A program made the position numbers and the translations under genes. From Fimbriimonadaceae bacterium (GTDB taxonomy: Bacteria; Armatimonadota; UBA10988): DNA of 64,000 nucleotides. The notes beneath the pieces are model-generated. The model made no database searches. It saw only the letters and a program-made list of their open reading frames with translations, and was not told the origin of the DNA. The stretch lies in NCBI GenBank assembly GCA_020850355.1, contig JADZEX010000044.1, positions 62,001 to 126,000 on the forward strand, in the 5' to 3' direction. The number at the start of each line of letters is the position of its first letter. The stretch's first letter is position 1. Shown here piece by piece: positions 27,873 through 43,286 of this stretch.

Positions 27873-29096
27873 CTACGGGGCTTTGACGCTGTCCTGGGCC
27901 ACGTGACAGAGCGCGCACCAGGCTTTGGTGTGGCAGTTCAGGCAGAACGACCGCTCGCTGTGGCTGGCCTCGCCGCGGTGGCCGTCGACGTAGTCGGCGG
28001 GGTGTGGCATCGTGGTACCGTGACAATCACGGCAACTGCTGGCGGTGTGGCAGCGTCCACAAACCTGCGGATCGCGCTGCGCCGCGGCGCCGTGCTGCCG
28101 GCGGAAGGCCGCGGAGTGGGGCATCGCCAGACCGTGGCAGCCGGCGCACTCGGCCTGCTGGTGGCAGCGCGCACAAACCGCCCGATCGCGCCGCGCCGGC
28201 TGGCCGTGGCGACGCTCGAAGTCGGCCGGATGCGGCATCGCCAGCCCGTGGCAGTTCTGGCAGGTTCGGCTGCTGTGGCAAACCGCGCAGCGCTCCGGAT
28301 CCGCTTCGGCGGCCGGCCCGTGGGCGCGCCGGAAGCCGGCCGGGTGCGGATTGCGCGAGCGGTGACAGGCCTGGCAGTCGCCGGCGGCGTGACACTTGCC
28401 ACAGAGCCGCTGGTCACTGTGCCCGTGGGTCGCCTTGAAGTCTGGCGGGTGCGGCAACGTCAGGCCATGGCACTGCGTGCAGCCGGCCGGCTCGTGACAA
28501 GTGGCGCAGACCTTTGGGGTCTCCTTGGCCAACTGGCCGTGGCGGCTGCCGAAGCCGGCGGGGTGGGGCAGTTCCAGGCCGTGGCAGGACTGGCACCAAG
28601 ACGCTTCGTGACAAGTGCGGCAGGTGGCCTGCGCCGAAACGTCGCGGCCGTGGTCCCGGGCGAAACTCGGCCGCTGGTGATTCGTCGGCTTAACCCGCTG
28701 CATCTCGGCGTGACAGGTGCGGCAGTCGGCACTGGCCTGCCGGCCGTCGTGACAGCGTAGACAGCCGCCGGCGATGCCCAAAGTGTGGGGCGCCGTGCCG
28801 GCCGGTAGCGGTTGGTGGTCCCAGGTCCCATGGCACTCGTTGCAGTGCGTGCCCCGCTCGGCGTGCTGGGCGTGGGAGAAGCGGATGCCGCGGGAGCCGT
28901 CGCCCGAGAGGGGGTTGTGGCAGTTGAAGCAGGGCAACCCAACGACGCGCGCCCGACCGGCGCCGGCCACGGCCGCGGTCGGCGCGCTGCGCGGTGCGGC
29001 CGGCGGCGACGGGCGACTACACCCCGCCGACAGCCCCACCAGAATCGTCGCTGTCAGCAGCAGCCAGCGGTGATGCCGCCGGCTGAGGGCTGTCAT
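27873..29096 (-). CDS. 18-heme c-type cytochrome lipoprotein
   Basis: 407 residues with 18 CXXCH motifs. The N-terminus RRHHRWLLLTATILVGLSAGC ends in a lipobox Cys, so an exported lipid-anchored protein is expected. From about residue 165 it consists of repeats of ~40 residues with the pattern CxxCHxxxxCxxCHGLxxPHPAxF and a following HG. The last two motifs are SFCLNCHTKAWCALCH. ATG with GAGG 6 nt upstream; the start overlaps the end of the b561 gene by 80 nt. As the terminal gene of the multiheme operon it is a candidate periplasmic wire or surface cytochrome. No catalytic domain is visible. Confidence 0.88.
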   Translation of the reverse strand: MTALSRRHHRWLLLTATILVGLSAGCSRPSPPAAPRSAPTAAVAGAGRARVVGLPCFNCHNPLSGDGSRGIRFSHAQHAERGTHCNECHGTWDHQPLPAGTAPHTLGIAGGCLRCHDGRQASADCRTCHAEMQRVKPTNHQRPSFARDHGRDVSAQATCRTCHEASWCQSCHGLELPHPAGFGSRHGQLAKETPKVCATCHEPAGCTQCHGLTLPHPPDFKATHGHSDQRLCGKCHAAGDCQACHRSRNPHPAGFRRAHGPAAEADPERCAVCHSSRTCQNCHGLAMPHPADFERRHGQPARRDRAVCARCHQQAECAGCHGLAMPHSAAFRRQHGAAAQRDPQVCGRCHTASSCRDCHGTTMPHPADYVDGHRGEASHSERSFCLNCHTKAWCALCHVAQDSVKAP

Positions 29097-29784
29097 CGTG
29101 CGCCTCGCTCTGCTCGGCAGCCTCGAGTGCCGCCAACTCCTTGGGGTGATGATGCCGCATCTCGGTGGCGCTGAGGGTGCCGCTCAGCCAGAGGCGGTTC
29201 ATTGGGAAGACGTCCCGCCGCAGATGGGCGTGGTACATGTGCCAGATGGCGATCGAAAGGGCTGCCAGAACCGCCTCATAGCCATGCACGACCTTCGCCA
29301 GGTCGATGCCCAGGGCGGTCACCCAGCCTGCCGCGCCGACCGGGAACCAGAGGATGAAGCCCGTCGCGACCATCACGACGCTGCCCCAGACCACGGCCCA
29401 GTACTCGAACTTCTCGATGAAGTTGTAGCGGCCGTAGCGCGGTTCGGGCGCCCGGGGATCGAAGAGCCAGCGGAAGGTGTCCCGGACCTCGACGAGATCC
29501 TCGCGGCTGGGCAGCATGGCCGTGCTCAGTTGCCGGCGGCGCCAGCGACCAAGCAGGTAGACGCAGTGCCAGAGGCTGCAGACGATCAGTCCGACGGCGG
29601 CGATGCGGTGGACCAGGCCGGCCATGCTGGCGCCGCCGAGGTGTTGCGCCAGCACCTGCGAGGTGGCGCTGCCGGCGTACCGCAGGGGCAGGCCGGTCGC
29701 CACCAGCAGGCTGAAGGAGACCATCATCAACTTGTGCTGCCGCACCTGCGAACGATCCCAGCGTTGGTAGCGGCGTTCGCTCAT
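29017..29784 (-). CDS. Cytochrome b561/formate-dehydrogenase-gamma-like membrane cytochrome
   Basis: 255 residues with four transmembrane helices. His residues fit two b hemes: HKLMMVSFSLLVATG, LVHRIAAVGLIVCSLWHCVYLL and VHGYEAVLAALSIAIWHMYHAHL. The last ~50 residues are a soluble Glu/Asp/His-rich tail. Such proteins take electrons from menaquinol or deliver them to it. Start overlaps the stop of the membrane-anchored 7-heme gene by 4 nt (ATGA), so the two products probably form one complex, comparable to the fused diheme-b/multiheme-c CbcL of Geobacter (analogy only). Confidence 0.85.
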   Translation of the reverse strand: MSERRYQRWDRSQVRQHKLMMVSFSLLVATGLPLRYAGSATSQVLAQHLGGASMAGLVHRIAAVGLIVCSLWHCVYLLGRWRRRQLSTAMLPSREDLVEVRDTFRWLFDPRAPEPRYGRYNFIEKFEYWAVVWGSVVMVATGFILWFPVGAAGWVTALGIDLAKVVHGYEAVLAALSIAIWHMYHAHLRRDVFPMNRLWLSGTLSATEMRHHHPKELAALEAAEQSEAHDDSPQPAASPLAAADSDDSGGAVGGV

Positions 29785-30686
29785 GCGTGGCTCCCCGGCG
29801 GGTTCAGCCGGCGGCGGCGGAAGTCGAGCAGCATGTAGCCGAGCATGCCGCCGATGGTGCCGACAATCGCCAGCCGGTAGAACCAGCTCACCCAGAAGAC
29901 CACGGGCGCGGTGGCCGTGGTGGGGACCTGGTGGCTGAAGGCCTGGGCGAACTGCGGCCCCGCTCCGGGGTGGCAGCTCGGCTGGCCGCAGGTCACGGCC
30001 ACCCGGGCGGGATTCACCCGCGACAGCGGGTCCTCGTGGCGGCGGATGTCGTGAGTACCATGGCAGGAGGTACAGACCGCCGCCTCGCGGCTGCCAAGCG
30101 CGGACTTCTCGCCATGGAAGCTGGTCTCGAAAGTCTGCACGACGTTGGTCTGCGCGTTGAAGCTGGCCATCACCGTGGAGTCCGCATGGCAGCGCGCGCA
30201 AGTGGCCGGCACATTGGCCGGATTGGTGGAACTCTCCAGCTCGTCGTGCGGCGTGATGTAGTGGCTGCCATGGCAGTCCTGGCAGAGCGGCACCTGCTGG
30301 TCGCCGGTGGCCGCGGTCTGCGCATGCACCGACTGGACGTAATCGGCCGCCTGGCTGCGGTGGCAACGCACGCAGTTGGCCACCGCGCTGCGGGCGGCCA
30401 GCGAGCGCTCGCGCAGAATGTCGGGCCACGGCTCCGGCAGGTCGGCCACCGGCGGATCGCCGTGCGGGCCCACCCCGAAACCGGCATGGCACTCCAGACA
30501 GCCACGCTTGCCGTGGACACTGCTCGCGAAACGGTTCGCGTCGACGTACCTCGAGCGCACCTGGCCGTCGGGCTCGATCACCGCCAGCTCCCGCGAGCTG
30601 TGACAGACCAGACAGCCGGCATCGCCGGTGGCGGCCGCCAGCCGGCTCCCGATCAGTAGCAGCACCGCCAGCGCTCGCCCGCTCAT
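29781..30686 (-). CDS. Membrane-anchored 7-heme c-type cytochrome
   Basis: 301 residues with an N-terminal signal (ALAVLLLIGSRLAAA). There are six CXXCH motifs and one CX4CH (CGQPSCH). One C-terminal transmembrane helix (residues ~267-290) is followed by FRRRRLNPPG, so the heme domain should face the periplasm. It probably receives electrons from the b561 encoded next. It overlaps both neighbours by 4 nt (ATGA), indicating tight translational coupling. Confidence 0.87.
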   Translation of the reverse strand: MSGRALAVLLLIGSRLAAATGDAGCLVCHSSRELAVIEPDGQVRSRYVDANRFASSVHGKRGCLECHAGFGVGPHGDPPVADLPEPWPDILRERSLAARSAVANCVRCHRSQAADYVQSVHAQTAATGDQQVPLCQDCHGSHYITPHDELESSTNPANVPATCARCHADSTVMASFNAQTNVVQTFETSFHGEKSALGSREAAVCTSCHGTHDIRRHEDPLSRVNPARVAVTCGQPSCHPGAGPQFAQAFSHQVPTTATAPVVFWVSWFYRLAIVGTIGGMLGYMLLDFRRRRLNPPGSHA

Positions 30687-31570
30687 GGCGCCGCCTTCCC
30701 GACCGGCGCGGGCACCGCCTCGTGGCAGAGCTTGCAGTAGGCCTCGTCGTGGCACTTCAGACAGCTAGCCGGCTGCTTCTGGCAGGCCTCCTTGTGCTCG
30801 GTCGCGAAGTCGGGCGGGTGGGGTAGCGGCACCGCGTGGCAGGTGTCGCAGAAGCTCACCTGGTCATGGCACATGCGGCACTCGTCCTGGTGCCCCTTGG
30901 CGTCCCCGCCGTGCTTCAGCTTGAAGCCCGCCCGTCCATGCGATTCCGGCTGCGGGACATCCTCACCGTGGCACTCGCCGCAGCCGGCAGCTTGCGGCAG
31001 TTTCAGGAGATGAGGTTCCCGAGAGCCGTGGAAGGCGTGGCACATGTCGCAGGTCAGGGCCCCGTCGGCCAGCGTGTGGTGGCGCTTCGCCGCCGCCTCG
31101 GCGGCCAGTGTCTGGTGGCACGGCTGGCAGTCCTGGCCTTCCGGGCGGCGCAGCAGCTTGTCGCGCTCCGACTTGCGGTGCACCGCGTGACATTGGTCAC
31201 AGGACACCTTCTGGTCGTGCGGACCAGCCCGCCAGAGCGCCGCCGGCACCTGCTCCTGATGGCAGGCCAGGCAGACCCCGTTGGCCTCGGGCGGCGGCAG
31301 CGTGCGCCAGCGCACAATCTGCTGCCGCTGGCCAAAGCTGTGTGCGCCACCCGGACCGTGGCAGGCCTCACAGCCCCGTTTCTCCGGAGGCAGGCGCTCT
31401 GCCGCCATCGCCTTGCTGTGGTCCAGCGCCGCCCATTGCCGGGCGTAGTCGATGTGGCAGCGCAGACAGACCGCCGTGCCGACATAGGCGGCCGGCGCCG
31501 CGCCGGTCTGCGAACCGGCCACCGCGAGCAGCAACATCAGGGGAAGCCCTGCCTGCCAGACTAGACGCAT
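30683..31570 (-). CDS. Periplasmic 11-heme c-type cytochrome
   Basis: 295 residues with a signal peptide (WQAGLPLMLLLAVAGSQTGA) and 11 CXXCH motifs. The N-terminal part (YVGTAVCLRCH ... KRGCEACHGPGGAH) resembles DmsE-type cytochromes. The C-terminal four motifs (CRMCH, CDTCH with PLPHPPDF, CLKCH, CKLCH) match the repeat module of the 18-heme lipoprotein, suggesting module exchange within the locus. A soluble electron carrier or wire is the simplest role. It starts 41 nt after the 7-heme gene. Confidence 0.87.
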   Translation of the reverse strand: MRLVWQAGLPLMLLLAVAGSQTGAAPAAYVGTAVCLRCHIDYARQWAALDHSKAMAAERLPPEKRGCEACHGPGGAHSFGQRQQIVRWRTLPPPEANGVCLACHQEQVPAALWRAGPHDQKVSCDQCHAVHRKSERDKLLRRPEGQDCQPCHQTLAAEAAAKRHHTLADGALTCDMCHAFHGSREPHLLKLPQAAGCGECHGEDVPQPESHGRAGFKLKHGGDAKGHQDECRMCHDQVSFCDTCHAVPLPHPPDFATEHKEACQKQPASCLKCHDEAYCKLCHEAVPAPVGKAAP

Positions 31571-31610
31571 CGTGCGCTCCAGCGCGCTCGGACCGCAGTC
31601 GCCGCCCGGG

Positions 31611-32567
31611 TCAGCCCTGCGGGACGATCGTCTTGTCGAAGAGGTGCCGTCCATCCGGCATGTGGCAGGTGGCGCAAGTGGCCCCGGCCGGCAACGCGTG
31701 CTTCTTGGCCTTCACATGCTCTTCGATGCTAGGGACCGTCGTCTTGTGACACTGCAGGCAGGTCTCGTTGATCGGCAAGACCAGTTGGTAGGGCTGTGCG
31801 GTGTCGCCATGCGGATCGTGGCACTTCTCGCAGACGACGCCCGCCTGCCAGTGCTTCGGGCTCTGCAGCATCTCCGAGTATTGCTGGTTGCGGCCGGGCT
31901 TGGTCGGCCTGGCGTCGGTGAAGACTTCGGCCAGGTCGGTGTTCAGCCGGTAGCCATGTGGGTAGGCCAGCTTGCCGTCCTTGCTGCGACCCAGGCTGTG
32001 GCACTGTCCACAGCTCGCCGCCTGCAGCGCCGGCGTGAAGCTGCTCGGTATCGCGATGGTCGACTTGCGGTCTTCTTTCTTGGCGGTGTTGTGCTTGCTG
32101 GCCGGGCCGTGACAGCGCTCGCAGCCCACCCCGAACATGCTGTCCTTGAGCTCGCGCGTCTCGGGGTTGAAGCCGGTGGTGTGGCAGCCGAGGCACTCGG
32201 TCACGGCATCGACAGGCTCGTGCGGGAGCCACTTCTTGGCATCGACATCCCAGACGCCCGGAAGCACCTTGAGGTCGGCGTCGAGGTAGGCCTGCTCATG
32301 CCGGCCCGTGGCAAGGACCAGTGTGATCTTGTCCTTCGTGAACGGGGCGTTGGTGAAGTCGGCTTTGATGACCTCATCGGTCGGCTTCAAGATCGCCCGC
32401 GCGTGGGCCGTCTTGGGGTAGGCCGTCACGATTTTGGCATGGTTGGCGCGATGGCAAACGAGGCAGAGGCGGTTCCCGGTGTAGGTCGCCCCATCCACCT
32501 GGCTGTGCGCCGCGACGGCCAGCAAGGCCACGGTGGCAGTCACTGCGACGACACGTGTCAGCTTCAT
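31611..32567 (-). CDS. Periplasmic 7-heme c-type cytochrome
   Basis: 318 residues. Signal peptide VVAVTATVALLAVAAHSQVDG, then seven CXXCH motifs: CLVCH, CLGCH, CERCH, CGQCH, CEKCH, CLQCH and CATCH. The architecture (YTGNRLCLVCHRANH, TECLGCHTTGF, VGCERCHGPASKH) resembles cytochrome c554/hydroxylamine-oxidoreductase-related multiheme proteins, but no enzymatic residue can be assigned. ATG with GGAGG 5 nt upstream. Likely an electron carrier between the inner-membrane module and the outer-membrane conduit. Confidence 0.86.
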   Translation of the reverse strand: MKLTRVVAVTATVALLAVAAHSQVDGATYTGNRLCLVCHRANHAKIVTAYPKTAHARAILKPTDEVIKADFTNAPFTKDKITLVLATGRHEQAYLDADLKVLPGVWDVDAKKWLPHEPVDAVTECLGCHTTGFNPETRELKDSMFGVGCERCHGPASKHNTAKKEDRKSTIAIPSSFTPALQAASCGQCHSLGRSKDGKLAYPHGYRLNTDLAEVFTDARPTKPGRNQQYSEMLQSPKHWQAGVVCEKCHDPHGDTAQPYQLVLPINETCLQCHKTTVPSIEEHVKAKKHALPAGATCATCHMPDGRHLFDKTIVPQG

Positions 32568-32737
32568 CGCGCCCTCCGAAGGCTGTCGCATCTACCGCGC
32601 CGACGAGCAGCCTTCGTCCCGTCGCGCAGGTCCGACCAAAGCAGAGCGCGTTCACCCCGCCGCCGACTTCGGACTTCCTCGCGGGAGTCCTCGTCATCCG
32701 CTGGTTGGACGACGACGGCGGGGCGAACGTGCCAGGA
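32568..32737. other. Intergenic region with 13-bp inverted repeat
   Basis: A 170-nt gap within the multiheme operon. Arms at 32650-32662 and 32716-32728 (GTTCACCCCGCCG and its near reverse complement) could form a long-range hairpin. No gene is seen. It may be a processing or partial termination site. Confidence 0.35.
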
Positions 32738-34333
32738 TCAGAAGGGACTGGCGAAGCTGAAGTTCAGGATGTTCGTATCGTAGCGCAGCCCCGGCAGCAG
32801 CGTGCTGTCGAGGTCCTGCAACTGGTACGTGAACCGCAGCTCGCGCCCTCCACCCAGGGCGGTGGTGAGGCCAGCGTTGACGTAGTGCTGGTCGGTGTCG
32901 TCGCCGTAGTACGATTCGCTGAGGTTGTAATCGGCCCACAGGCGCCATTTCAGCGACGGCTGCCAGGCGATCCCGGCGTGCAGCACCAGGCCGTCGGCAT
33001 CGAGGCCGGTGAGGGTGGCGCTGCTGACGCTGAGGTCCCGGAAGTAGACGTCTCCCGACAGGGAGACCTGCGGGGTCAGGGCGTAGCTGTAGCCGAGGCC
33101 GTAGCTCTGCATCGTCTCGCCGAAGCCGCGCGCTTGCGCCCGGCGGTAGCGGTGCTGGAAGAAGCCGTAGGCCATGCCACTGGGCCCGAGGTTGAGGCTG
33201 CCGCGCATCTTCAGCTTGTGCTCGGTGTCCAGGAACAACGGCCGGGCATCCCCGATCAGCGGCGCGGCGCTGTTGTCGAGGTTGTTGACCGTCTTGAACT
33301 GGTACTCGCCGCTGACCCGCAGGTTGTGCTTCGTGCGGAAGTCTAGCCGGGTCCAGGCCCGGGTCTCGTGAGGCTTCTCGACCGCGCTCTGGATGGCGTT
33401 GTAGCGCTCCAGTTGCTGCCGCTCCAGGCCGCCGCGCCAGGTGATGGTGGTGGACGGCTTCCAGATCAACGACAGCCCGCCACCGAGGCTCTTCGTCACG
33501 TAGGCGTTGGCGGTCGGGCCGAGGTCGATGTCGCGGAGGGTGAAGCGCGCCTCGGTCCAGAGGTTCTTGGCCGGCTGGTAGCTGGCCATCGCACCGGCCT
33601 GGAACAGCTCACTCCCGGCCAGGCCGGGCTGCCGCAGCAGCGTCCACTGCGCCGCGCCGCCGAACAGCCAGCGGCTGCCCAGCACGGCGTGGTAGCTGAT
33701 GTCGTACATCTGGGTCTGCGACGGCAGGCGACCAGCGACGCGCTCGCGGAAGGCCAGCGAGTTGGCCTTCAAACCGAGCACGCCCGGGCCGAGCGGCAAG
33801 TCGAACGAGCCGCCGAACTCCTCGGTCGAGTAGCTGTAGGCGCCTTCCCGGATCTGCGTCGGATGGTTGACCCGCTCCTGCTTGAACCAGGTGCCGACCC
33901 GCGAACCAAGCCCCGGCCGGACCCGCAGGTCGTAGGCCGTGTTGGTCCGCCGGCTGAGCCCCGGCAGCGGCGCCAGCGGTTCGTTGAAGAACATCGCGCG
34001 GTCCCAGGTCGCCCGCAGCATCATCGGCAGGGCCGGGTTCCAGAGGGCCACCATGGCGTCCGAGCGTTCGCCCAGGAAGTCGCGGGTCCAGACGTCGATC
34101 ACGTCGTAACCCTTCGGCGTCCGCAGGTCGAAGCGCTCGATGTCCAGGGTCACCCCGGTCCACGGGGCGACGTACTGGCCGGCCCGGGGACGGAAGCCGT
34201 CGGTGCCCTGCAGGCGCCAACCCAGCGTGACCACCGCGGCGGCCTCGGGCGGCGCCGTGATCACCGGTTTCTCAGCCGCCATCACGGGTGCGACGGTGAT
34301 CACCGCCAGCAGCCAAGGCAGTTTTGCTCGCAT
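32738..34333 (-). CDS. Outer-membrane beta-barrel protein, probable MtrB/PioB-like porin
   Basis: 531 residues. A signal peptide (LPWLLAVITVAPVMAA) is followed by alternating amphipathic strands rich in aromatic girdle residues. The C-terminus NFSFASPF ends in Phe, the usual BAM signal. It is immediately downstream (11 nt) of the MtrA-like decaheme gene, the order seen in porin-cytochrome conduits. It is shorter than Shewanella MtrB (~680-700) and lacks its N-terminal CXXC, so homology is inferred from context and fold. It should sheath the decaheme protein across the outer membrane. ATG with AGGAGG 7 nt upstream. Confidence 0.75.
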   Translation of the reverse strand: MRAKLPWLLAVITVAPVMAAEKPVITAPPEAAAVVTLGWRLQGTDGFRPRAGQYVAPWTGVTLDIERFDLRTPKGYDVIDVWTRDFLGERSDAMVALWNPALPMMLRATWDRAMFFNEPLAPLPGLSRRTNTAYDLRVRPGLGSRVGTWFKQERVNHPTQIREGAYSYSTEEFGGSFDLPLGPGVLGLKANSLAFRERVAGRLPSQTQMYDISYHAVLGSRWLFGGAAQWTLLRQPGLAGSELFQAGAMASYQPAKNLWTEARFTLRDIDLGPTANAYVTKSLGGGLSLIWKPSTTITWRGGLERQQLERYNAIQSAVEKPHETRAWTRLDFRTKHNLRVSGEYQFKTVNNLDNSAAPLIGDARPLFLDTEHKLKMRGSLNLGPSGMAYGFFQHRYRRAQARGFGETMQSYGLGYSYALTPQVSLSGDVYFRDLSVSSATLTGLDADGLVLHAGIAWQPSLKWRLWADYNLSESYYGDDTDQHYVNAGLTTALGGGRELRFTYQLQDLDSTLLPGLRYDTNILNFSFASPF

Positions 34334-34344
34334 CACGGCACCTC

Positions 34345-35241
34345 CTACTGGATCAACAGCCGGTTGACGTTGGAGCCATGCAGACGGCTGTGGCAGCCGG
34401 CCTGGTAGCAGCTTCCGGCGCGCGGCAGGTGCGCCGGGTCCGCGGCGATGTCGCCATGGCACTGCAGGCAGATGGCGTTGCCGAACATCTCACCGAGCTT
34501 CGGATTCGGCGAACCGTGCGGCCGGTGGCAGGTCATGCAACCCTCATCACCGGTGCCGGTGCTGGTGGCGTGCTCGAACACGAACGGCCCGCGCTTCTCC
34601 AGATGGCAGCGCACGCAACTGTCGTTGCCCGCCTTCAGCAAGGCGCCCGCGCCGGCGCCCGCCTGGTGCGGGTCGTGGCAGTCGGAGCAGTCCATCCGCT
34701 TTTCGAGCACCGGGTGGTGCGAGTTCATCCGGAACTCTGCCGCCTGGTCCGGATGGCAGCTCAAGCACAGCTCATTGGTGCGGTTCTTGAGCATGTACGG
34801 GCCCTTCGGCTCGTTGTGGGTGTCATGGCACCCGCCACAGCCCAGGCCAGCCTTGGCGTGCGACGTGTTGAGCCACAATGGCGCCTTGATGTCGGTGCCG
34901 TGGCAGGCCAGGCAACTGCGCACCGCCGGCAGCCCGACCATGGTCTTGAGGTGCCGGATGTTGCGGAACTCCGGGTCCTCCAAGTGTTTGCTGCCCGGCC
35001 CGTGGCAGCCCTCGCAACCGCGTTGTTCGGGCGGCAGCTTCTCGCTCTGCAGGTTGGCGTTGTGCCGGGTGGTGCCCCACGCCGGCGCATATTGCGCATG
35101 GCACTCCAGGCAGGTCTCACTGCCGACCGGCTGGGCCGCCTCCGCCTCGTCTCCCTGCACCGGCCGCGGGCCCAGCAGGGGCACCAGCGATGCCAGCGTC
35201 ACCGCGAGAGCCACGCCTCCGACACGACACACCGGCCTCAT
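34345..35241 (-). CDS. MtrA/DmsE-like decaheme c-type cytochrome
   Basis: 298 residues with a signal peptide, nine CXXCH motifs and one CX4CH (CYQAGCH). Length and layout match the DmsE/MtrA family: QPVGSETCLECHAQY near the start, RGCEGCHGPGSKH, and a C-terminal CHSRLHGSN close to the family's terminal CHxxxHGSN. MtrA-type proteins sit inside an outer-membrane barrel and pass electrons across it. Start overlaps the ccmF stop by 4 nt (ATGA), and the barrel gene follows 11 nt later. Confidence 0.88.
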   Translation of the reverse strand: MRPVCRVGGVALAVTLASLVPLLGPRPVQGDEAEAAQPVGSETCLECHAQYAPAWGTTRHNANLQSEKLPPEQRGCEGCHGPGSKHLEDPEFRNIRHLKTMVGLPAVRSCLACHGTDIKAPLWLNTSHAKAGLGCGGCHDTHNEPKGPYMLKNRTNELCLSCHPDQAAEFRMNSHHPVLEKRMDCSDCHDPHQAGAGAGALLKAGNDSCVRCHLEKRGPFVFEHATSTGTGDEGCMTCHRPHGSPNPKLGEMFGNAICLQCHGDIAADPAHLPRAGSCYQAGCHSRLHGSNVNRLLIQ

Positions 35242-37421
35242 CGTGCGTTTCCTTTCGTGCCCGTCCCTTGTGTCCGCTCGGCGTTCCACCGACCACCCAG
35301 CGCCAACGCCCCACCCAGCAGGGCCAGCACCGTACCCACCCAGACCAGGGCAATCCCTGGCTTCCAGGTTACCTTCAGCACCAGTTGCAGCCCCTCCGGT
35401 TGCCCTGGTGGTGTGACCGTCACCCGCACCTGACCCTTGGTCGCCCCATGCCCGGGCATGATCTGCGTGACCCGCAGCGCATGGCCGTTGACCGTCTCGG
35501 GAGGGCTCTCGAACTCACCCTCGCCCTTGACCACGAACCGCGGCGTCACGTGGACGCTGTGGCCCGGCCACTCGGCCCGCAGCTTCGCGCCGACCGACAT
35601 GTCGCCGGCGCCGCTGCCATGGGTGCCCATTTCGAAGCTCACGAACTGCAGCCGCAGCCCACCCACGACCTTCGACTCACCCTTCGTGAGCACCGCTTCC
35701 AGCCCGCCGCCACCCTCTTCGACCTGGTCGGGCTCCAGGTAGAGGTCGCCCGTCAGGCGGTGGAAGATGGTCGGGTGGCGCATCACGCCCATGCTGGTCT
35801 CGTAGACCAGCGCGGTGCCCTGGCGCTCGCCGTGGGCCAGGGTCAGGGCCAGTTTGCCGTCCGGCAAGGTCGCCGACTCGACGAATCGCGCCTCGCCGCC
35901 GATCTGCTCCAGCGCGGCAGCGCGGCCCTCGGTCAACTGCACCGTGTCGACCCGCTGCCCGGCGCCGCTGTAGATCGCCCCGACGGCCAGCAGCGCCATC
36001 CCAAGGTGGGCCAGCCCGGCGCCGGCCTCAGGCCAGCGGCGGCCCAGCCAGCCGCGCCGCAGCCTGGTGCCAGCGGTGGCGGCCATCGCGCCGCAACTGG
36101 CCGCCACCAAGAGCAGCCCAATCCGGTCGCGGAGCGCCGGCAGTGCGCCCAGCAGACCGCCGGCCAGGCCAGCCGCCAGGGCCGCGGCGACACTGACCAA
36201 GACCACCTGCCGCTTGCCACGGGGCGGCAGCAGCAAGACCAGCAGCAGGCCGGCGAGGCCCAGACAGGCGCTCTGGGTCTGGTTGTAGAAGCCCTGCTGC
36301 ACCGCGCTGGGTTCGCCCAGCAGCTTGGTCACCAGTGGCGCCGAGGTGCCGCCGAGGACCAGCAGGGCCATCAGAATCAGCAGCCAGGTGGCCTGCGCCA
36401 GGCGCTCCAGATTGGCCGGCACGCCCGGTCGCTGGGAGCTCCGGCGGACCGTCCAAAGGAGGCCCAGGGCCGCCCCGACCGGCATCAGCACGAGGCCCAG
36501 CCAGACCGAGTTGACCTGCGTCCCGAGGCTCTCGAAGCTGTGCACCGAGAAGTCGCCGAGGACGCCGCTGCGGGTCAGGTAGGAGCCGTAGATCACAGTC
36601 GCGAAACTGAGCAGGGCCAGCACGTAGTTGGCCATCCGGAAGGCGCCGCAGCGGCGTTGCAGCAGGCAGCCGTGGAGCAGCGCGGTGGCGAACAGCCAGG
36701 GGATCAGCGAGGAGTTCTCCACTGGATCCCAGGCCCAGAAGCCGCCCCAGCCGAGGGTGATGTAGGCCCAGTACCCGCCGAGCATCATGCCGGCGCCGAG
36801 CAGCACCCAGCCCGCCAGCAGCCAGGGCCGCGCCACGTCCAGCCAGCCGTCGGGCTCGCGCCGGGCGAAGGCGCTGACGGCCCAGGCGAACGGCACGGTC
36901 AGCAGGGCGTAACCGGCGAACAGCACGGGCGGATGGATGATCATCCAGGGGTTGCGCAACAGCGGGTTGAGGCCGTGACCGTCGTCGGGCAGGCTGCCGC
37001 TGACCAGCGCGTAAGGACTGCGCACCAGCAGCAGCGCTCCGAAGCCGGTCAGGACCGCTGCCAACACGACGGTCGCCCCGCGGGCGCCGGGGCGCTGCGG
37101 ATCCCAGATGGCGGCCGCCACCACAAACAGCAGGAAGGTCCACAGCAGGACCGTGCCCTCCTGCCCGGCCCACAAGGCCGCCACGCGATAGGCGGTCGGC
37201 AGATCCCGCGAGCTGTGTCGCACGACATAGTCGATCGCGAAATCGTGCTGCAGCAGGCCGCGCCACAGCAGCCCCATCGCGGTGGCCGCCAACAAGGTCC
37301 CGCTCACCAGCGCGGGTCGCAACCAGGCGCGGCGGTTGAACAGCCCTGCCAGCAGCGCCACCAGCGCGCAGCCCAGCAGTGCCGCCAAGAGCCAATCCGC
37401 AGCCGGACGATCCGAAGTCAT
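35238..37421 (-). CDS. ccmF: Cytochrome c biogenesis protein CcmF (heme lyase subunit)
   Basis: 727 residues with many transmembrane helices. It carries the heme-handling WWD motif WGGFWAWDPVENSS and conserved HSSRDLPTAYRVAALWAGQEG, followed by a C-terminal periplasmic beta-rich domain. CcmF attaches heme to CXXCH apocytochromes in the periplasm (system I). It heads the multiheme operon and is coupled to the decaheme gene, which suggests dedicated maturation capacity for the 62 heme sites. No other ccm gene is in the window. ATG with GGAGG ~13 nt and GAG closer upstream. Confidence 0.9.
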   Translation of the reverse strand: MTSDRPAADWLLAALLGCALVALLAGLFNRRAWLRPALVSGTLLAATAMGLLWRGLLQHDFAIDYVVRHSSRDLPTAYRVAALWAGQEGTVLLWTFLLFVVAAAIWDPQRPGARGATVVLAAVLTGFGALLLVRSPYALVSGSLPDDGHGLNPLLRNPWMIIHPPVLFAGYALLTVPFAWAVSAFARREPDGWLDVARPWLLAGWVLLGAGMMLGGYWAYITLGWGGFWAWDPVENSSLIPWLFATALLHGCLLQRRCGAFRMANYVLALLSFATVIYGSYLTRSGVLGDFSVHSFESLGTQVNSVWLGLVLMPVGAALGLLWTVRRSSQRPGVPANLERLAQATWLLILMALLVLGGTSAPLVTKLLGEPSAVQQGFYNQTQSACLGLAGLLLVLLLPPRGKRQVVLVSVAAALAAGLAGGLLGALPALRDRIGLLLVAASCGAMAATAGTRLRRGWLGRRWPEAGAGLAHLGMALLAVGAIYSGAGQRVDTVQLTEGRAAALEQIGGEARFVESATLPDGKLALTLAHGERQGTALVYETSMGVMRHPTIFHRLTGDLYLEPDQVEEGGGGLEAVLTKGESKVVGGLRLQFVSFEMGTHGSGAGDMSVGAKLRAEWPGHSVHVTPRFVVKGEGEFESPPETVNGHALRVTQIMPGHGATKGQVRVTVTPPGQPEGLQLVLKVTWKPGIALVWVGTVLALLGGALALGGRWNAERTQGTGTKGNAR

Positions 37422-37924
37422 ACCCAGCGCTCCTCCAGGATGGCGCCGTCAGCGTTCCCCGCGCTCCGGCGTCCGCCACAGGCCGTGCCCATCTGGCGCG
37501 GCGACTGGTCTGGGTACTGCAACATTGCTGCCCGAAAACCACCCCGGCTGCCTGTCGGCAGGCCCTGGCGGACGAGCCGGGCGTCCGCCCCCAAGGCGCC
37601 TGCGCGGCAGTCGCCCGAACTACGCGGGCCGGTACGCGGGTACCTTGTCGGGTATCTCGGCAGCCAGGCGACGTATTTGCCGCCGCTGATACGAGCGGGG
37701 GCCATGACACTGGCGCCGGAGAGTCCCAAACACGGGGCACATGGAGAGCGCCGTGGGGCGCGCCGCGGGCCGGGCCGGTCGCTCCAAGCGCTGCCGCGAG
37801 GGCGTGGCAACAGCTTTGCAGAACCACCCTGCACTTGGCGTCCGGTGGCGTGGCGGCTGAAGGCCAGGAGGCTGGCGGCGCGTCGCGGACCGACGGGGAG
37901 ACTGCGGTGGTGAGGAGGCGAGCC
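37422..37924. other. Divergent control region of the multiheme locus
   Basis: 503 nt separate the divergent ccmF operon and the 9-heme lipoprotein gene. No protein fits it and no c-di-GMP, cobalamin or other riboswitch core was recognised. A near-palindrome CAACATTGCTG lies around 37520. No good sigma-70 promoter was found on either strand, so promoters may use another sigma factor or an activator. Confidence 0.4.
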
Positions 37925-39244
37925 ATGCTCGGCGGTCGACGATCCACGGTGATCGCGGTAGCAGCCATTTCGGGGCTCTTGGCGATCGGCTGTGGCAGCA
38001 GTAATGCCGGCGGTGGTGGAGGCGGTGGCGCGACGCGCGCAACCTATGTGGGCGCCGAGGTCTGCCGCGGCTGCCATGCGGAGTTGTTCGAGCACTGGGA
38101 GGGCACCGGCCATGCCGAGGCACTCGCCAGCTTGCAGGCGATCGGGCAGGGCGGCAACACGCGCTGCTTGGGTTGCCATACGACCGGGATGGGCCAGCCC
38201 GGTGGGTTCACCAGTGCCACGGAGACCGCCAACCTGGTGGACGTGCAGTGCGAAAGCTGCCACGGCCCGGCTGGCGAGCACGTCGGCAATCCGGAAGGCG
38301 TCGACTTGCCGGTGGCCATAGACAGCGCCGTCTGCGGCTCCTGCCACGTCGGCGCGCACCATCCGCAGTTCACCGAGTATGAGCAGTCGGTGCACTCAGT
38401 CTCGAAGCGGCACGGGGAGTCGAGCTGCCTGCCGTGCCACACGGCCGAAGGGTATGTCGATCGGCTGAACGGCCCAGGCCCGGTTGAGGAGCCCGCGGAC
38501 CGCCAGGTCGACGGCGAGGGCGAAGCGGCCACCACCGATACCGAGTGCTGGGCCTGCCACAACCCGCACCAGCGCCGCGACGACGCACCATCGCAGTTGC
38601 GCAAGCCGGCCGCGGAGCTGTGCCGCGATTGTCACACCTTCCGTGACGAGCGCGGCGTGCCGGGCACACGGGTGCACAAGCCGCAGGGTGAGGTGCTCAA
38701 TGCGACCGGCGCCTACGACTGGAATGGCACCACCTACGTGCCGCTCAGTCTGCCGGCCGGCAGTTCGACCCACGCCACCGCTACGGGCGGGGACTGCGCT
38801 GTCTGCCACGTCTACCAGGTACCGAACTCCACCATCACCGAGGCCAGCCCGCTGGTGACGGGGCACCTCTTCCTGCCCAACCTCAACGCCTGCGACGACG
38901 CCGGCTGTCACACGGACCTCGCCGCAGCGCGGCGACAAGAGGGTGAGGCGCCGGTGGTGATCGAAGATGGCAACATCGCCGAGGGCGCCAGCCAGGCGGT
39001 GATCGACTACGTCAACGCCACCAAGGCCGCCACGGTGACGCGCCTGCGGGCCATCAAGTCCAAGCTGGACAAGGTCAACCTGACCGCGCTGACCGTGCCG
39101 CAGAAGACGCAGTACGACATCGCCAAGTGGAACTACGACGTCGCCTTCAACGACGACAGCGACGGCTGCCACAACCTCGACTACGTCAACCTGATGCTCG
39201 ACGTAGCCGACCGGTTGGTGACGCCGCTGCCGCGCCGGCCATAG
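37925..39244 (+). CDS. 9-heme c-type cytochrome lipoprotein
   Basis: 439 residues. The signal AVAAISGLLAIGCGSS has a lipobox Cys and is followed by a Gly-rich linker. There are eight CXXCH motifs and one CX4CH (CDDAGCH). The last ~120 residues have no heme motifs and look helical. The lipid anchor, flexible Gly linker and position divergent from the conduit operon make it a candidate cell-surface terminal cytochrome, analogous to MtrC or OmcB in role but not visibly homologous. ATG has GAGGAGG 6 nt upstream. A strong terminator follows. Confidence 0.86.
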   Translation: MLGGRRSTVIAVAAISGLLAIGCGSSNAGGGGGGGATRATYVGAEVCRGCHAELFEHWEGTGHAEALASLQAIGQGGNTRCLGCHTTGMGQPGGFTSATETANLVDVQCESCHGPAGEHVGNPEGVDLPVAIDSAVCGSCHVGAHHPQFTEYEQSVHSVSKRHGESSCLPCHTAEGYVDRLNGPGPVEEPADRQVDGEGEAATTDTECWACHNPHQRRDDAPSQLRKPAAELCRDCHTFRDERGVPGTRVHKPQGEVLNATGAYDWNGTTYVPLSLPAGSSTHATATGGDCAVCHVYQVPNSTITEASPLVTGHLFLPNLNACDDAGCHTDLAAARRQEGEAPVVIEDGNIAEGASQAVIDYVNATKAATVTRLRAIKSKLDKVNLTALTVPQKTQYDIAKWNYDVAFNDDSDGCHNLDYVNLMLDVADRLVTPLPRRP

Positions 39245-39506: not shown

Positions 39507-40727
39507 TCAGCCCAGGCCGGCGTTCATCTGGAAGATCGGCATCAGCATCGCGAACACGACGACGGCCACGACGCCGCCCATCACCAGAATGATCAGCGGC
39601 TCGACCAGCGCGATCAGCCCCTTCAGGGCATTGGCGACTTCGACATCGAAGGCGTCGGCGACCGTGTTCAGCGCCCCTTCGACGTCCCCGGTTTCTTCGC
39701 CGACCAGCATCATCTGCGCCAGCAGGGCGGGGTAGGCGCCAGTCTTGCGGGTCTCGTGCCCGAGACTTTCGCCCTCGCGGACGCCGTCGCGAATCTGGCG
39801 CAGGGCCTGCGCCAGGCAGGCGTTGTCGACCACGCCCTCGACCTGACTGAGGGCATCCAATATGCTCACGCCTCCGCGCAGCAGGGTCGCCAGCGTCCGT
39901 GCCAGGCGGGCCGTGGCGGAGCGGTGCTGCAGGCGCCCGAGCAGCGGCCAGCGCAATCGCCAGCGGTCCCAGCGGAGGCGGCCGGCCGGTGTGCGCAGCC
40001 ACTGCCGGTGGAGAAACCAAAGCACCGCCAGGGCCAGCGCCAGCGCCCAGCCGCGGTAGCGCAGGAAGTCGCTGACCGCCAGCACCAGTTGGGTGGTCAA
40101 CGGCAGCGCGCGGTCCACTTCCTCGAAGAGCACCCGGAACTTCGGGATCAGGAAGGTCACCATCCCGAAGATCACCAGCCCGCCGACGGTCACCAGCAGG
40201 CCGGGGTACATCAATGCGGCGCGAATCTGGCTGCGCCGTTCGAGGTCCTGCTCCAGGAAATCAGCCAGCCGGGTCAGCACGCCCGCCAGCTCGCCGCTGG
40301 CTTCGCCGGCCGACACCAGGCTGACATAGAGCGAGCTGAAGATGCGCGGATGGGCGCCCAGTGAGGCCGCCAGCGACTCGCCGCGGGCCACCTCCTCGCG
40401 GACGCCGCTGAGGACCTCAAACAGGCGGGCGTTCTCGGTGTTGTCGATCAGCGCGTCGAGCGTCCGTAGAATCGGGAGTCCGCCCGCCACCAGATTGGCG
40501 AGCTGCCGCGTGAACATCGTCAGGTCGGCCTGCTTGACGCGCCGGCCGCGCCGCTTCACCGAACTTCCCAGGCTGACGTCCCGCGACCCGCCGGCGGCCC
40601 GGACCTCCAGCGGGAAGAGCCCCAGGGCCTGGATCTGCACGGTCGCCGCGCGGGTGTCGTTGGCCGTCACCGTGCCATCGGCCGGCGAGCCCGCGCGGTC
40701 CAAAGCCTGGTAGCTGAAAAGCGGCAA
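39507..40727 (-). CDS. Type II secretion/type IV pilus inner-membrane platform protein (GspF/PilC)
   Basis: 406 residues with the duplicated GspF architecture: FTRQLANLVAGGLPILRTLD in the first half and LARTLATLLRGGVSILDAL in the second, plus three to four hydrophobic helices (LLVTVGGLVIFGMVTFLIP and LIILVMGGVVAVVVFAMLMP). It anchors pseudopilus or pilus assembly in the inner membrane and pairs with the ATPase encoded upstream. The N-terminus MPLFSYQALDRAG is family-typical. It starts at TTG 40727 with GGAG 6 nt upstream. Confidence 0.88.
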   Translation of the reverse strand: MPLFSYQALDRAGSPADGTVTANDTRAATVQIQALGLFPLEVRAAGGSRDVSLGSSVKRRGRRVKQADLTMFTRQLANLVAGGLPILRTLDALIDNTENARLFEVLSGVREEVARGESLAASLGAHPRIFSSLYVSLVSAGEASGELAGVLTRLADFLEQDLERRSQIRAALMYPGLLVTVGGLVIFGMVTFLIPKFRVLFEEVDRALPLTTQLVLAVSDFLRYRGWALALALAVLWFLHRQWLRTPAGRLRWDRWRLRWPLLGRLQHRSATARLARTLATLLRGGVSILDALSQVEGVVDNACLAQALRQIRDGVREGESLGHETRKTGAYPALLAQMMLVGEETGDVEGALNTVADAFDVEVANALKGLIALVEPLIILVMGGVVAVVVFAMLMPIFQMNAGLG

Positions 40728-40797
40728 ACCGAACTCCAGTCACGGCAGCGCCGCGGAGGATCGGCGACCCTCCGCGGCGGGAATGCCCGTGGTGCGC

Positions 40798-41523
40798 CTA
40801 ACGCTCGCGCTGCAAAGCCGCCAACTCGGCGTCGATCCGCAGCTCGTCCAAGAGCCGGCGGCTCGACTCCTGGGCTTCATGCTCTTCCCAAGCGCCAAAG
40901 TCGCCGAGCCCGCGGGTCGCAAACTGCAAGGTCTGCCGGGCATACCGCTCCGCGGTCTCGCGATGGCCGGCGCGGAAGTACGCCCAGGCCAGGGTGTCGA
41001 CATTGCAGGCGTTGCGGTCGTCGTTGACGCTCGAGAGCGCCAGCCCGAGCGCCTGGGGCGCCCGCCGCCCGGTCTGGGTGTAGTGCCACGCCAGGTTGTT
41101 GCGCAGCACGCCGCCGCCCAGCAGCATGTCGGCTTCGCGGACGTACCACTCGGCCAGGTCGTACTGACCATTGACCAGCAAGTGCTCGAACAGATCGTAG
41201 AGCACCTCCCGGTCGGACTCGTGGTTCAACCCGTGGCTGCGGTACCAGGCCACGGTCTCGCGGGCCAGGCCGCGCGCGGCCAACTCGGCGCCCTCGTGGC
41301 TGGCGGCCCGGTAGGTGAAGACCGGCCCGGCCGGCCGTTCGCGGCCGCGGTGGAAACCGTCGTGCAGGTCCCGCGCCCACCGGGCCAAGGCCGGGGCCAG
41401 CCCTGGCTGGTCGCCGACGCGGGCCCCCAGGCCGGCGCTGCCAACCGGCAGCACAATGCTGGCGAGCGCGAAGCAGAGCACGCTGCTGCCCGGTAGGAGC
41501 AGCCATCGCTTGTTGTGGATCAT
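40798..41523 (-). CDS. Secreted/anchored TPR-like protein of unknown function
   Basis: 241 residues. One N-terminal hydrophobic segment (WLLLPGSSVLCFALASIVLP) acts as signal or anchor. The rest is helical and TPR-like: LFEHLLVNGQYDLAEWYVREAD and LAWAYFRAGHRETAERYARQ. No named family is recognised. It lies between the gspE/pilB and gspF/pilC homologues, 17 nt after gspE, so an accessory role in the secretion or pilus machine is plausible. ATG with GGAGG 8 nt upstream. Confidence 0.7.
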   Translation of the reverse strand: MIHNKRWLLLPGSSVLCFALASIVLPVGSAGLGARVGDQPGLAPALARWARDLHDGFHRGRERPAGPVFTYRAASHEGAELAARGLARETVAWYRSHGLNHESDREVLYDLFEHLLVNGQYDLAEWYVREADMLLGGGVLRNNLAWHYTQTGRRAPQALGLALSSVNDDRNACNVDTLAWAYFRAGHRETAERYARQTLQFATRGLGDFGAWEEHEAQESSRRLLDELRIDAELAALQRER

Positions 41524-41540
41524 GTCAGGCACCTCCGCCA

Positions 41541-43286
41541 CTAGTCCGCGTGGCGAGCGTCATCCTCCCCAACGCCGAGGCGGGCCTCGTCTTCGTGCGT
41601 CACGCGAGTCACCTCCTCGATGCTGGTCATACCCTCCAGGACCTTCTGCCAACCTTCGTCGCGGAGGGTGGTCATGCCATTGCGCATCGCCGCCTCCTTG
41701 ATCTCCGAGCTGGCCGCCCGTTGCATCACCAGGCCTTCGATCACTTCGTCCACCGCCAGCAGCTCGTACAGGCCGACCCGGCCGAGGTAGCCCGTGCCGC
41801 GGCACTGCTCGCAACCCCCCGGGCGGTAGATGGTCGCGCCTTCGAAGCGCTCCCGCTGCGTGCCGAACTCCGCCAGTTCGGCGGCCGTCGGGCGGTACGG
41901 CACGCGGCAGTGCGGACAAAGCCGCCGCACCAGCCGCTGCGCCAGGACGCCCTCCACGCTGCTGGCCACCAGAAACGGCTCAGCGCCCATGTCGAGCAGC
42001 CGCGCCATCGCCGAGGAGCTGTCGTTGGTGTGCAACGTCGAGAACACCAGATGGCCGGTCAAGGCCGCGTGGATCGCGATATCGGCCGTTTCGCCGTCGC
42101 GGATCTCGCCAACCATGATCACATCCGGGTCCTGTCTCAGGATATGCCGCAAACCCTCGGCGAATGTCAAACCGATTTTCGGCCGGACGTGGATCTGATT
42201 CACACCGCCGAGCTGGTACTCGACCGGATCCTCGATGGTAATCACCTTGCGGGTCGGCGAGTTGACCAGTTGGAGTGCCGCATAGAGCGTCGTGGTCTTT
42301 CCCGAGCCGGTTGGTCCGGTCGCCAGGATGATGCCGTAGGGCGTCTTGAGCAGCCGTTGGAAGCGCTCCCGGGTGTGGGCCGGGAAGCCCAGGTCGTCGA
42401 GTCCCCGCAGGCCGGTCTCTTTGTCCAACAGGCGCATCACGACGCTTTCACCGTAGAGCGTCGGCACGGTCGAGATGCGCAGGTCGATCTCGCGTCCTTC
42501 GACCCGGACCTTGATCCGCCCGTCCTGCGGCAGCCGCCGTTCGGCGATGTCGAGCTCGGCGAGGATCTTGATGCGGCTGGTGATGGCGGCCTGATAGCGC
42601 TTCGCCGGCGCTGGCATGTCGCGCAGCACGCCGTCGATCCGGAAGCGTACCTTGAGGTCCCGTTCGAACGGCTCGATGTGAATGTCGCTGGCGCGCTCGC
42701 TGATCGCCTGGCGCAGCAGCAGGTTGACCAGCCGCACGACCAGCGCCTCGCGGGCCATGCTCTGGACGTCGCCGATGTCCTCGTCGTCGTCGGCCAGCAC
42801 CTCCACCGCGTCGGACGAGGCGGTGGTCATCATCTGGTGCAGGTAATGCTCTTCGACGAGCTGCCGGATCGCCTCGGCGTCAGCGACCACGGGCTCGATC
42901 CGGCGGCTGGTCGCAAACCGCAGGTCGTCGAGCGCCTCGATGTTGAGCGGGTCGCCGATCGCCACCACGAGGTGGTCGGCGGTGGCTTCGAGCGGCAAGA
43001 CCTGGTGGCGCCAGGCCAGGTCCGGCGGCACCAGCCGCATCACCGCGGCATCCAGCTCCAGATCGCGCAGGTTGCGCAGCGGCAGGCCGTACTGCTCGGA
43101 CAGGGCAACGGCGACGTCGCCCGCCCGGCAATGCCCCAGGCCGACCAGCAACTCGCCAAGTCGGCGGTGCTCGCCATCGGCGCGCTGCACTTCCAGCGCC
43201 TCGGCGATGCCCCCGGCGGTGACCGCGCCGCGGGCGATCAGGATGTCCCCCAGCAAGCGCTCCTGGACCACTTCACTCAACGCCAA
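41541..43286 (-). CDS. Type II secretion/type IV pilus assembly ATPase (GspE/PilB)
   Basis: 581 residues. Two N-terminal MshEN-like repeats (LLGDILIARGAVT and RLGELLVGLGHC), which in relatives bind c-di-GMP, precede the ATPase core. That core has Walker A GPTGSGKTTTLY, the Asp box DPDVIMVGEIRD and a His box near GHLVFSTLHTND. A CPHC ... CEQC zinc site is typical of PilB/GspE. It powers pilus or pseudopilus extension at the inner membrane. No ATG is available; TTG 43286 has GGGAG 6 nt upstream and gives a family-like N-terminus (MALSEVVQERLLG). Confidence 0.9.
   Translation of the reverse strand: MALSEVVQERLLGDILIARGAVTAGGIAEALEVQRADGEHRRLGELLVGLGHCRAGDVAVALSEQYGLPLRNLRDLELDAAVMRLVPPDLAWRHQVLPLEATADHLVVAIGDPLNIEALDDLRFATSRRIEPVVADAEAIRQLVEEHYLHQMMTTASSDAVEVLADDDEDIGDVQSMAREALVVRLVNLLLRQAISERASDIHIEPFERDLKVRFRIDGVLRDMPAPAKRYQAAITSRIKILAELDIAERRLPQDGRIKVRVEGREIDLRISTVPTLYGESVVMRLLDKETGLRGLDDLGFPAHTRERFQRLLKTPYGIILATGPTGSGKTTTLYAALQLVNSPTRKVITIEDPVEYQLGGVNQIHVRPKIGLTFAEGLRHILRQDPDVIMVGEIRDGETADIAIHAALTGHLVFSTLHTNDSSSAMARLLDMGAEPFLVASSVEGVLAQRLVRRLCPHCRVPYRPTAAELAEFGTQRERFEGATIYRPGGCEQCRGTGYLGRVGLYELLAVDEVIEGLVMQRAASSEIKEAAMRNGMTTLRDEGWQKVLEGMTSIEEVTRVTHEDEARLGVGEDDARHAD

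Follow-up and report, generated by a model that had tools for sequence, protein, structure and literature searches.

We describe a multihaem cytochrome locus in a stretch of 64,000 nucleotides (hereafter the window; G000:C45:62001-126000) from a metagenome-assembled genome (MAG) of Armatimonadota, a phylum within Bacillati; the assembly comprises 6.67 Mb in 117 contigs. The locus (window positions 27873-39244) probably specifies a conduit of the MtrAB type that carries electrons across the outer membrane and has inner-membrane and surface ends of its own, a reading to which we assign about three chances in four. The predicted MtrB fold of its outer-membrane barrel, natural fusions in relatives and a conserved gene set support the quinone-to-surface electron route that an earlier note, made from the sequence of the window, had proposed. 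The eight minus-strand genes and the divergent nine-haem lipoprotein gene listed in that note were all found. In minus-strand order, followed by the plus-strand gene, they are:

35238..37421, minus strand: CcmF-like haem lyase (727 residues; PF01578, TIGR00353 under cut-off, GGFWAWD and HPP motifs)
34345..35241, minus strand: MtrA/DmsE-family decahaem cytochrome (298 residues; TIGR03508, 6r2q_A, ten motifs)
32738..34333, minus strand: 26-strand outer-membrane β-barrel with MtrB-like predicted fold and C-terminal Phe (531 residues; AlphaFold model, Foldseek)
31611..32567, minus strand: h7, 7-haem periplasmic cytochrome, c554-type (PF13435, PF09699)
30683..31570, minus strand: h11, 11-haem periplasmic cytochrome, distantly DmsE/NrfB-like (TIGR03508 at 107 bits, under cut-off; PF22678)
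29781..30686, minus strand: h7m, 7-haem cytochrome anchored in the membrane by its C-terminus (haem motifs; hydrophobic helix at the C-terminus)
29017..29784, minus strand: b561, b-type cytochrome, formate-dehydrogenase-gamma-like (PF01292; 1kqf_C FdnI)
27873..29096, minus strand: h18, 18-haem lipoprotein, di-haem ladder (lipobox LSAGC; motifs alternating at 9 and 29 residues)
37925..39244, plus strand: h9, 9-haem lipoprotein, c554/OcwA-like, putative surface cytochrome (lipobox, Gly-rich tether, 6i5b_A, PF22113, PF13435)

The eight minus-strand genes are spaced as in an operon. Overlaps of four bases join ccmF to the decahaem gene, h11 to h7m and h7m to b561, and the remaining genes overlap or nearly abut, apart from wider gaps between the barrel gene and h7 (170 bases) and between h7 and h11 (40 bases). 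The start of h9 is most likely near 37925; its open frame begins at 37379. Our recount agrees with the 62 c-type haem sites of the earlier note: 59 CxxCH and three CX4CH motifs over six multihaem cytochromes (18 in h18, 11 in h11, seven in h7, and six, nine and eight plus one CX4CH each in h7m, the decahaem protein and h9, respectively). These motifs are not a product of chance, since the rest of the window holds one stray CxxCH among all stop-to-stop frames of at least 60 residues. In each of the six cytochromes, the number of histidines outside the motifs equals or exceeds the number of haems.

The decahaem protein and the barrel

Profile comparison, a check named in the earlier note, places the decahaem protein in the MtrA/DmsE family: it scores 200.4 bits against TIGR03508 (DmsE/MtrA), over the curated cut-off of 192.2, and aligns to the solved MtrA (6r2q_A) over 255 residues with an E-value of 4.9e-35. 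Nine of its ten haem attachment motifs are CxxCH; that of haem 10 is CX4CH and is kept in all nine aligned sequences (9/9). In the Mtr structure, it is haem 10 that contacts MtrC. At this position (residue 278), most relatives from Armatimonadota, Nitrospirota and Verrucomicrobiota also have CX4CH, and the Pseudomonadota relatives examined have CxxCH. The Armatimonadota sequences cluster in a tree of the family, the deep branches of which are unsure in placement because they are long.

The barrel ends in phenylalanine (...FASPF), as the earlier note had read it. A PDB search with its sequence gave nothing useful. Its AlphaFold model, built from 17 relatives, has a mean predicted local distance difference test (pLDDT) value of 84 and 26 strands, and its best Foldseek match in the PDB is MtrB (6r2q_B) with an E-value of 9.5e-14 and a template modelling (TM) score of 0.77; the next match has a TM score of 0.54. 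A small helix that separates the first two strands of the 26-stranded MtrB barrel (PMC7198977) is present in the model too. By computation, the barrel is thus predicted to be MtrB-like in fold, and it is not a member of that family by sequence model.

In nearly all loci read, from Armatimonadota, Nitrospirota, Verrucomicrobiota and Pseudomonadota, the decahaem gene is immediately followed by a long barrel-type open reading frame. In five genomes from three Armatimonadota families, the two parts form a single protein of ~980–1050 residues (L169:5733-8891, L170:5297-8329, L171:7322-10273, L172:11851-14796 and L181:7730-10675). In each fusion, a complete decahaem part (TIGR03508 above its cut-off in 4/4 scanned) is joined to a barrel part that ends in Phe, and the fused barrels match the family of the window barrel by profile (97.8%). 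Natural fusion indicates, at the level of sequence, that the decahaem protein and the barrel are partners. Together with the fold, where MtrB stands well ahead of the next match, it speaks against the barrel being an unrelated porin, which the earlier note had named as a possible outcome. The barrel part of the fusions also contains an extra CXXCH.

Quinol-side modules, haem ladder and surface cytochrome

The nearest matches of the b561 protein are formate dehydrogenase gamma subunits (PF01292; 1kqf_C FdnI), and six histidines of b561 are invariant across 14 relatives. In seven relatives (L040, L123, L136, L169, L170, L177 and L178), h7m and b561 form one polypeptide, from which the two window proteins are computed to be a pair. 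CbcL, an inner-membrane quinone oxidoreductase of Geobacter, likewise combines a b-type membrane part with a nine-haem part (PMC9129911). The fusions and the architecture of CbcL thus support a role for b561-h7m in oxidizing quinol, which we infer by analogy. In one genome (L176, G259:C66), several sets of b561, h7m and ladder genes lie side by side within ~15 kb. A 24-haem open reading frame (plus one CX4CH-type motif), open at the contig end, directly precedes h11 in G002 (L119:1-3108). The gene for h7 directly follows ccmF in two genomes of the nearest genera, G001 and G003. Our searches of the host genome used one family profile at a time; PF09699, found in h7, matches the locus and only one other protein, with four haems, on contig C34, and the PF02085 profile has no match in the genome.

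The motifs of h18 are spaced alternately at 9 and ~29 residues, with a density of one haem per ~20 residues. Homologues in other families contain 28, 30 or 32 haems, or 20 in two genomes, and h18 appears from its sequence to be a short form of this ladder. Most of the homologues have an N-terminal membrane helix and NapC/NrfH-like head; PF03264 exceeds its cut-off in L034, L122, L123 and L133. The Pfam scan found no PF03264 head in h18 of the window, and in the window's own family the ladder lacks the head and has a lipid anchor in its place. A strong ladder match occurs in 19 genomes, 17 of which also have a decahaem protein or a fusion, a co-occurrence uncorrected for relatedness. Haem counts of the headed proteins with di-haem repeats (L138-L151, L158 and L159; 20, 28, 30 or 32 haems) are always even. 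One family has 15-haem proteins of ~760–800 residues (L161-L166) that join a mono-haem-cytochrome-c-like CxxCH domain to a ladder-like part.

We tentatively suggest that h18 and its relatives of 28–32 haems might form a new class of wire that spans the periplasm. In this view, a NapC-like head would pass electrons from quinol directly into a modular di-haem ladder, which would attach to MtrAB-type conduits in place of small soluble shuttles. The dense packing of one haem per ~20 residues and the variable length, from 18 to 32 haems, would also suit an electron store, or capacitor. We consider this unlikely for the 18-haem protein, as the even haem counts, the strict repeat and the NapC-like quinol head of the relatives suggest a directed path.

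In h9, a lipobox is followed by a glycine-rich stretch, a likely tether, and the protein is presumably exposed at the cell surface. Its best matches among solved structures are 6i5b_A (E-value 5.3e-21) and 6qvm_A (4.3e-11), respectively OcwA of Thermincola and a surface cytochrome of Carboxydothermus, both reductases. PF22113 (MtrC/MtrF domain) and PF13435 are over cut-off, and the OmcA/MtrC-family model TIGR03507 has no match in h9. Most Armatimonadota loci have a relative of h9 beside the pair of decahaem protein and barrel. Its 12 spare histidines are enough for bis-His ligation of all nine haems.

Conservation, electron path and alternative readings

Conservation was examined in 291 Armatimonadota species genomes. 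The decahaem profile matches 98/291 at an E-value of 1e-25, and the match reaches haem 10 in 84/291, or 90/291 when six fusion-type matches are counted (G102, one of the six, is counted from its profile match). The window joins three modules that are separate in G001 and G003 (ccmF-h7; h9 with the decahaem-barrel pair; h11-h7m-b561-h18), and in families further away the modules are combined in different orders. Thus, the gene set is conserved but its order is not. The self-contained locus of the earlier note therefore describes the host genome and not the family; joint conservation of the set in relatives, on which that note had made its proposal depend, is found, although as three modules in the nearest genera.

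We infer the order of the carriers, the membrane that holds the ladder, the outward direction and the substrate as follows. b561 would oxidize quinol and hand electrons to the membrane-anchored h7m, from which they would pass via the periplasmic h11 and h7 and the lipid-anchored h18 ladder to the decahaem protein. The latter would sit inside the 26-strand barrel and pass electrons out to h9, which may reduce an acceptor at the outside, for example another cell, humics, or a mineral of Fe(III) or Mn(IV). Attachment of the haems would be the task of the linked CcmF.

Several observations weigh against this conduit. The comparison of the barrel with MtrB/PioB sequence models, as named in the earlier note, gave no match over cut-off: no Pfam family matches at an E-value of 0.001, and the match to NF041027 (GSU2204), at 6e-8, is under cut-off. 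The h18 structure model (pLDDT 35) gives no usable shape. The modules are dispersed in G001 and G003, and so a single operon is not required. Finally, the host genome has COX1 and FixO (cbb3-type oxidase) and a Rieske protein with cytochrome b (bc-type complex), so that the cell may respire oxygen and electrons could flow inward through the conduit.

In that case, Fe(II), Mn(II), a cathode or a partner cell would feed the bc complex and the cbb3 oxidase, as in PioAB/MtoAB. Comparable decahaem-barrel pairs serve Fe(II) oxidizers too (PMC4245776), and an earlier Armatimonadota MtoA-like gene grouped nearer PioA/MtoA (PMC9671151). However, the b561/h7m modules are of a quinol-oxidizing type, and relatives of the ladder carry NapC heads; h9 is nearest to the reductases 6i5b and 6qvm; and RuBisCO, the sole carbon fixation marker searched, was not found in the host genome by profile. 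We regard inward flow as rather unlikely. Outward transfer is the most likely direction, ahead of inward by about three to one, given the modules on the quinol side and the likeness of the surface protein to OcwA. A different role, in which h9 itself reduces a small molecule such as nitrite or selenite and minerals have no part, is suggested by the cytochrome c554 domain of h9 and h7 and by the presence of DmsE in the decahaem family, as DmsEF serves dimethyl sulphoxide reduction. The annotated neighbouring genes include neither a molybdopterin subunit nor any other catalytic subunit of a known type, and the spare histidines of h9, which allow nine bis-His haems, speak against an open catalytic haem, although not conclusively. 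A soluble substrate thus seems quite improbable, and the outward MtrAB-type conduit remains our preferred reading.

Known systems, haem maturation and neighbouring genes

The window locus shares with MtrAB(C) of Shewanella oneidensis the decahaem family, the 26-strand barrel fold and an adjacent surface-type multihaem lipoprotein. It differs in phylum, in its shorter barrel (531 residues) that lacks a Pfam match, in the CX4CH of haem 10, and in a c554/OcwA-like surface protein without an OmcA/MtrC model match; it has its own b561/h7m, ladder and CcmF, whereas S. oneidensis has CymA. Compared to the NapC/NrfH/CymA proteins, the PF03264 head is present on the ladder relatives but is replaced by a lipid anchor in h18. 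OcwA and the 6qvm cytochrome are the best solved matches of h9, and OcwA has nine haems, as does h9; these proteins, however, are from Gram-positive bacteria and function with no conduit through an outer membrane. Geobacter GSU2203-GSU2204 (NF041028/NF041027) is also a decahaem-barrel pair and its barrel profile is partly matched, but the window pair is below both curated cut-offs and the window barrel lacks a CXXCH; the decahaem-barrel fusions are closer to the Geobacter pair. The likeness to CbcL is seen in the architecture, a multihaem c-type part with a b-type membrane part, fused in several Armatimonadota (PMC9129911); in the window the genes are separate and there are seven haems rather than nine. 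Thus, as the earlier note stated, the gene set differs from those of Shewanella, Geobacter and Rhodopseudomonas.

Neither Armatimonadota nor fusions are mentioned in a survey (PMC8805035) that required mtrC, mtrA and mtrB together and identified 148 species from three phyla. Unassigned membrane multihaem cytochromes have been described in one Armatimonadota MAG (PMC11788075) and one MtoA-like gene in another report of an Armatimonadota MAG (PMC9671151). We found no MtrA-MtrB fusion, and no Armatimonadota in mtrCAB surveys, in the open-access literature, where absence is not proof. The locus would therefore extend MtrAB-type conduits, as a variant with its own parts, to a Bacillati phylum in which the open-access literature otherwise has the one MtoA-like gene, and in roughly 30% of the sampled Armatimonadota species. 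The two natural fusions (decahaem-barrel and h7m-b561) point to working partners and make both pairings directly testable, and the very long, even-numbered haem ladders bear on how electrons cross the periplasm.

CcmF of the locus matches PF01578 (98.9 bits) and, under cut-off, TIGR00353 (254 bits); it has the Cytochrom_C_asm domain with GGFWAWD as the tryptophan-rich WWD motif, and an HPP motif. A second CcmF, 36% identical, lies in a Ccm operon on contig C19 of the host genome. The locus copy falls in a clade with copies from G001 and G003, in which this lineage is linked to h7. G001 has only the locus CcmF lineage, which weakens the idea of a paralogue reserved for CX4CH haems. Families with fusions have instead a System II pair within the locus, consisting of a CcsA/CcsB-type protein (TIGR03144 over cut-off) and a partner that we read as ResB-like, and a further CcmF is encoded in loci of relatives in Chthonomonas and Fimbriimonas. 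Genes for haem lyases are thus a recurring feature of such loci. Classical CcmE has a histidine where CcmE of the host's Ccm operon has a cysteine (KCPSKE); CcmE proteins with KCPSKE are encoded at L087:12578-13102 and, likewise, in G004 (L195:6411-6920).

Genes for a platform protein (T2SSF) and an ATPase (T2SSE, MshEN) of the type II secretion/type IV pilus type lie next to h9 (window positions 39507-43271), with a TPR protein between, a possible link of export or of a pilus to the surface cytochromes.

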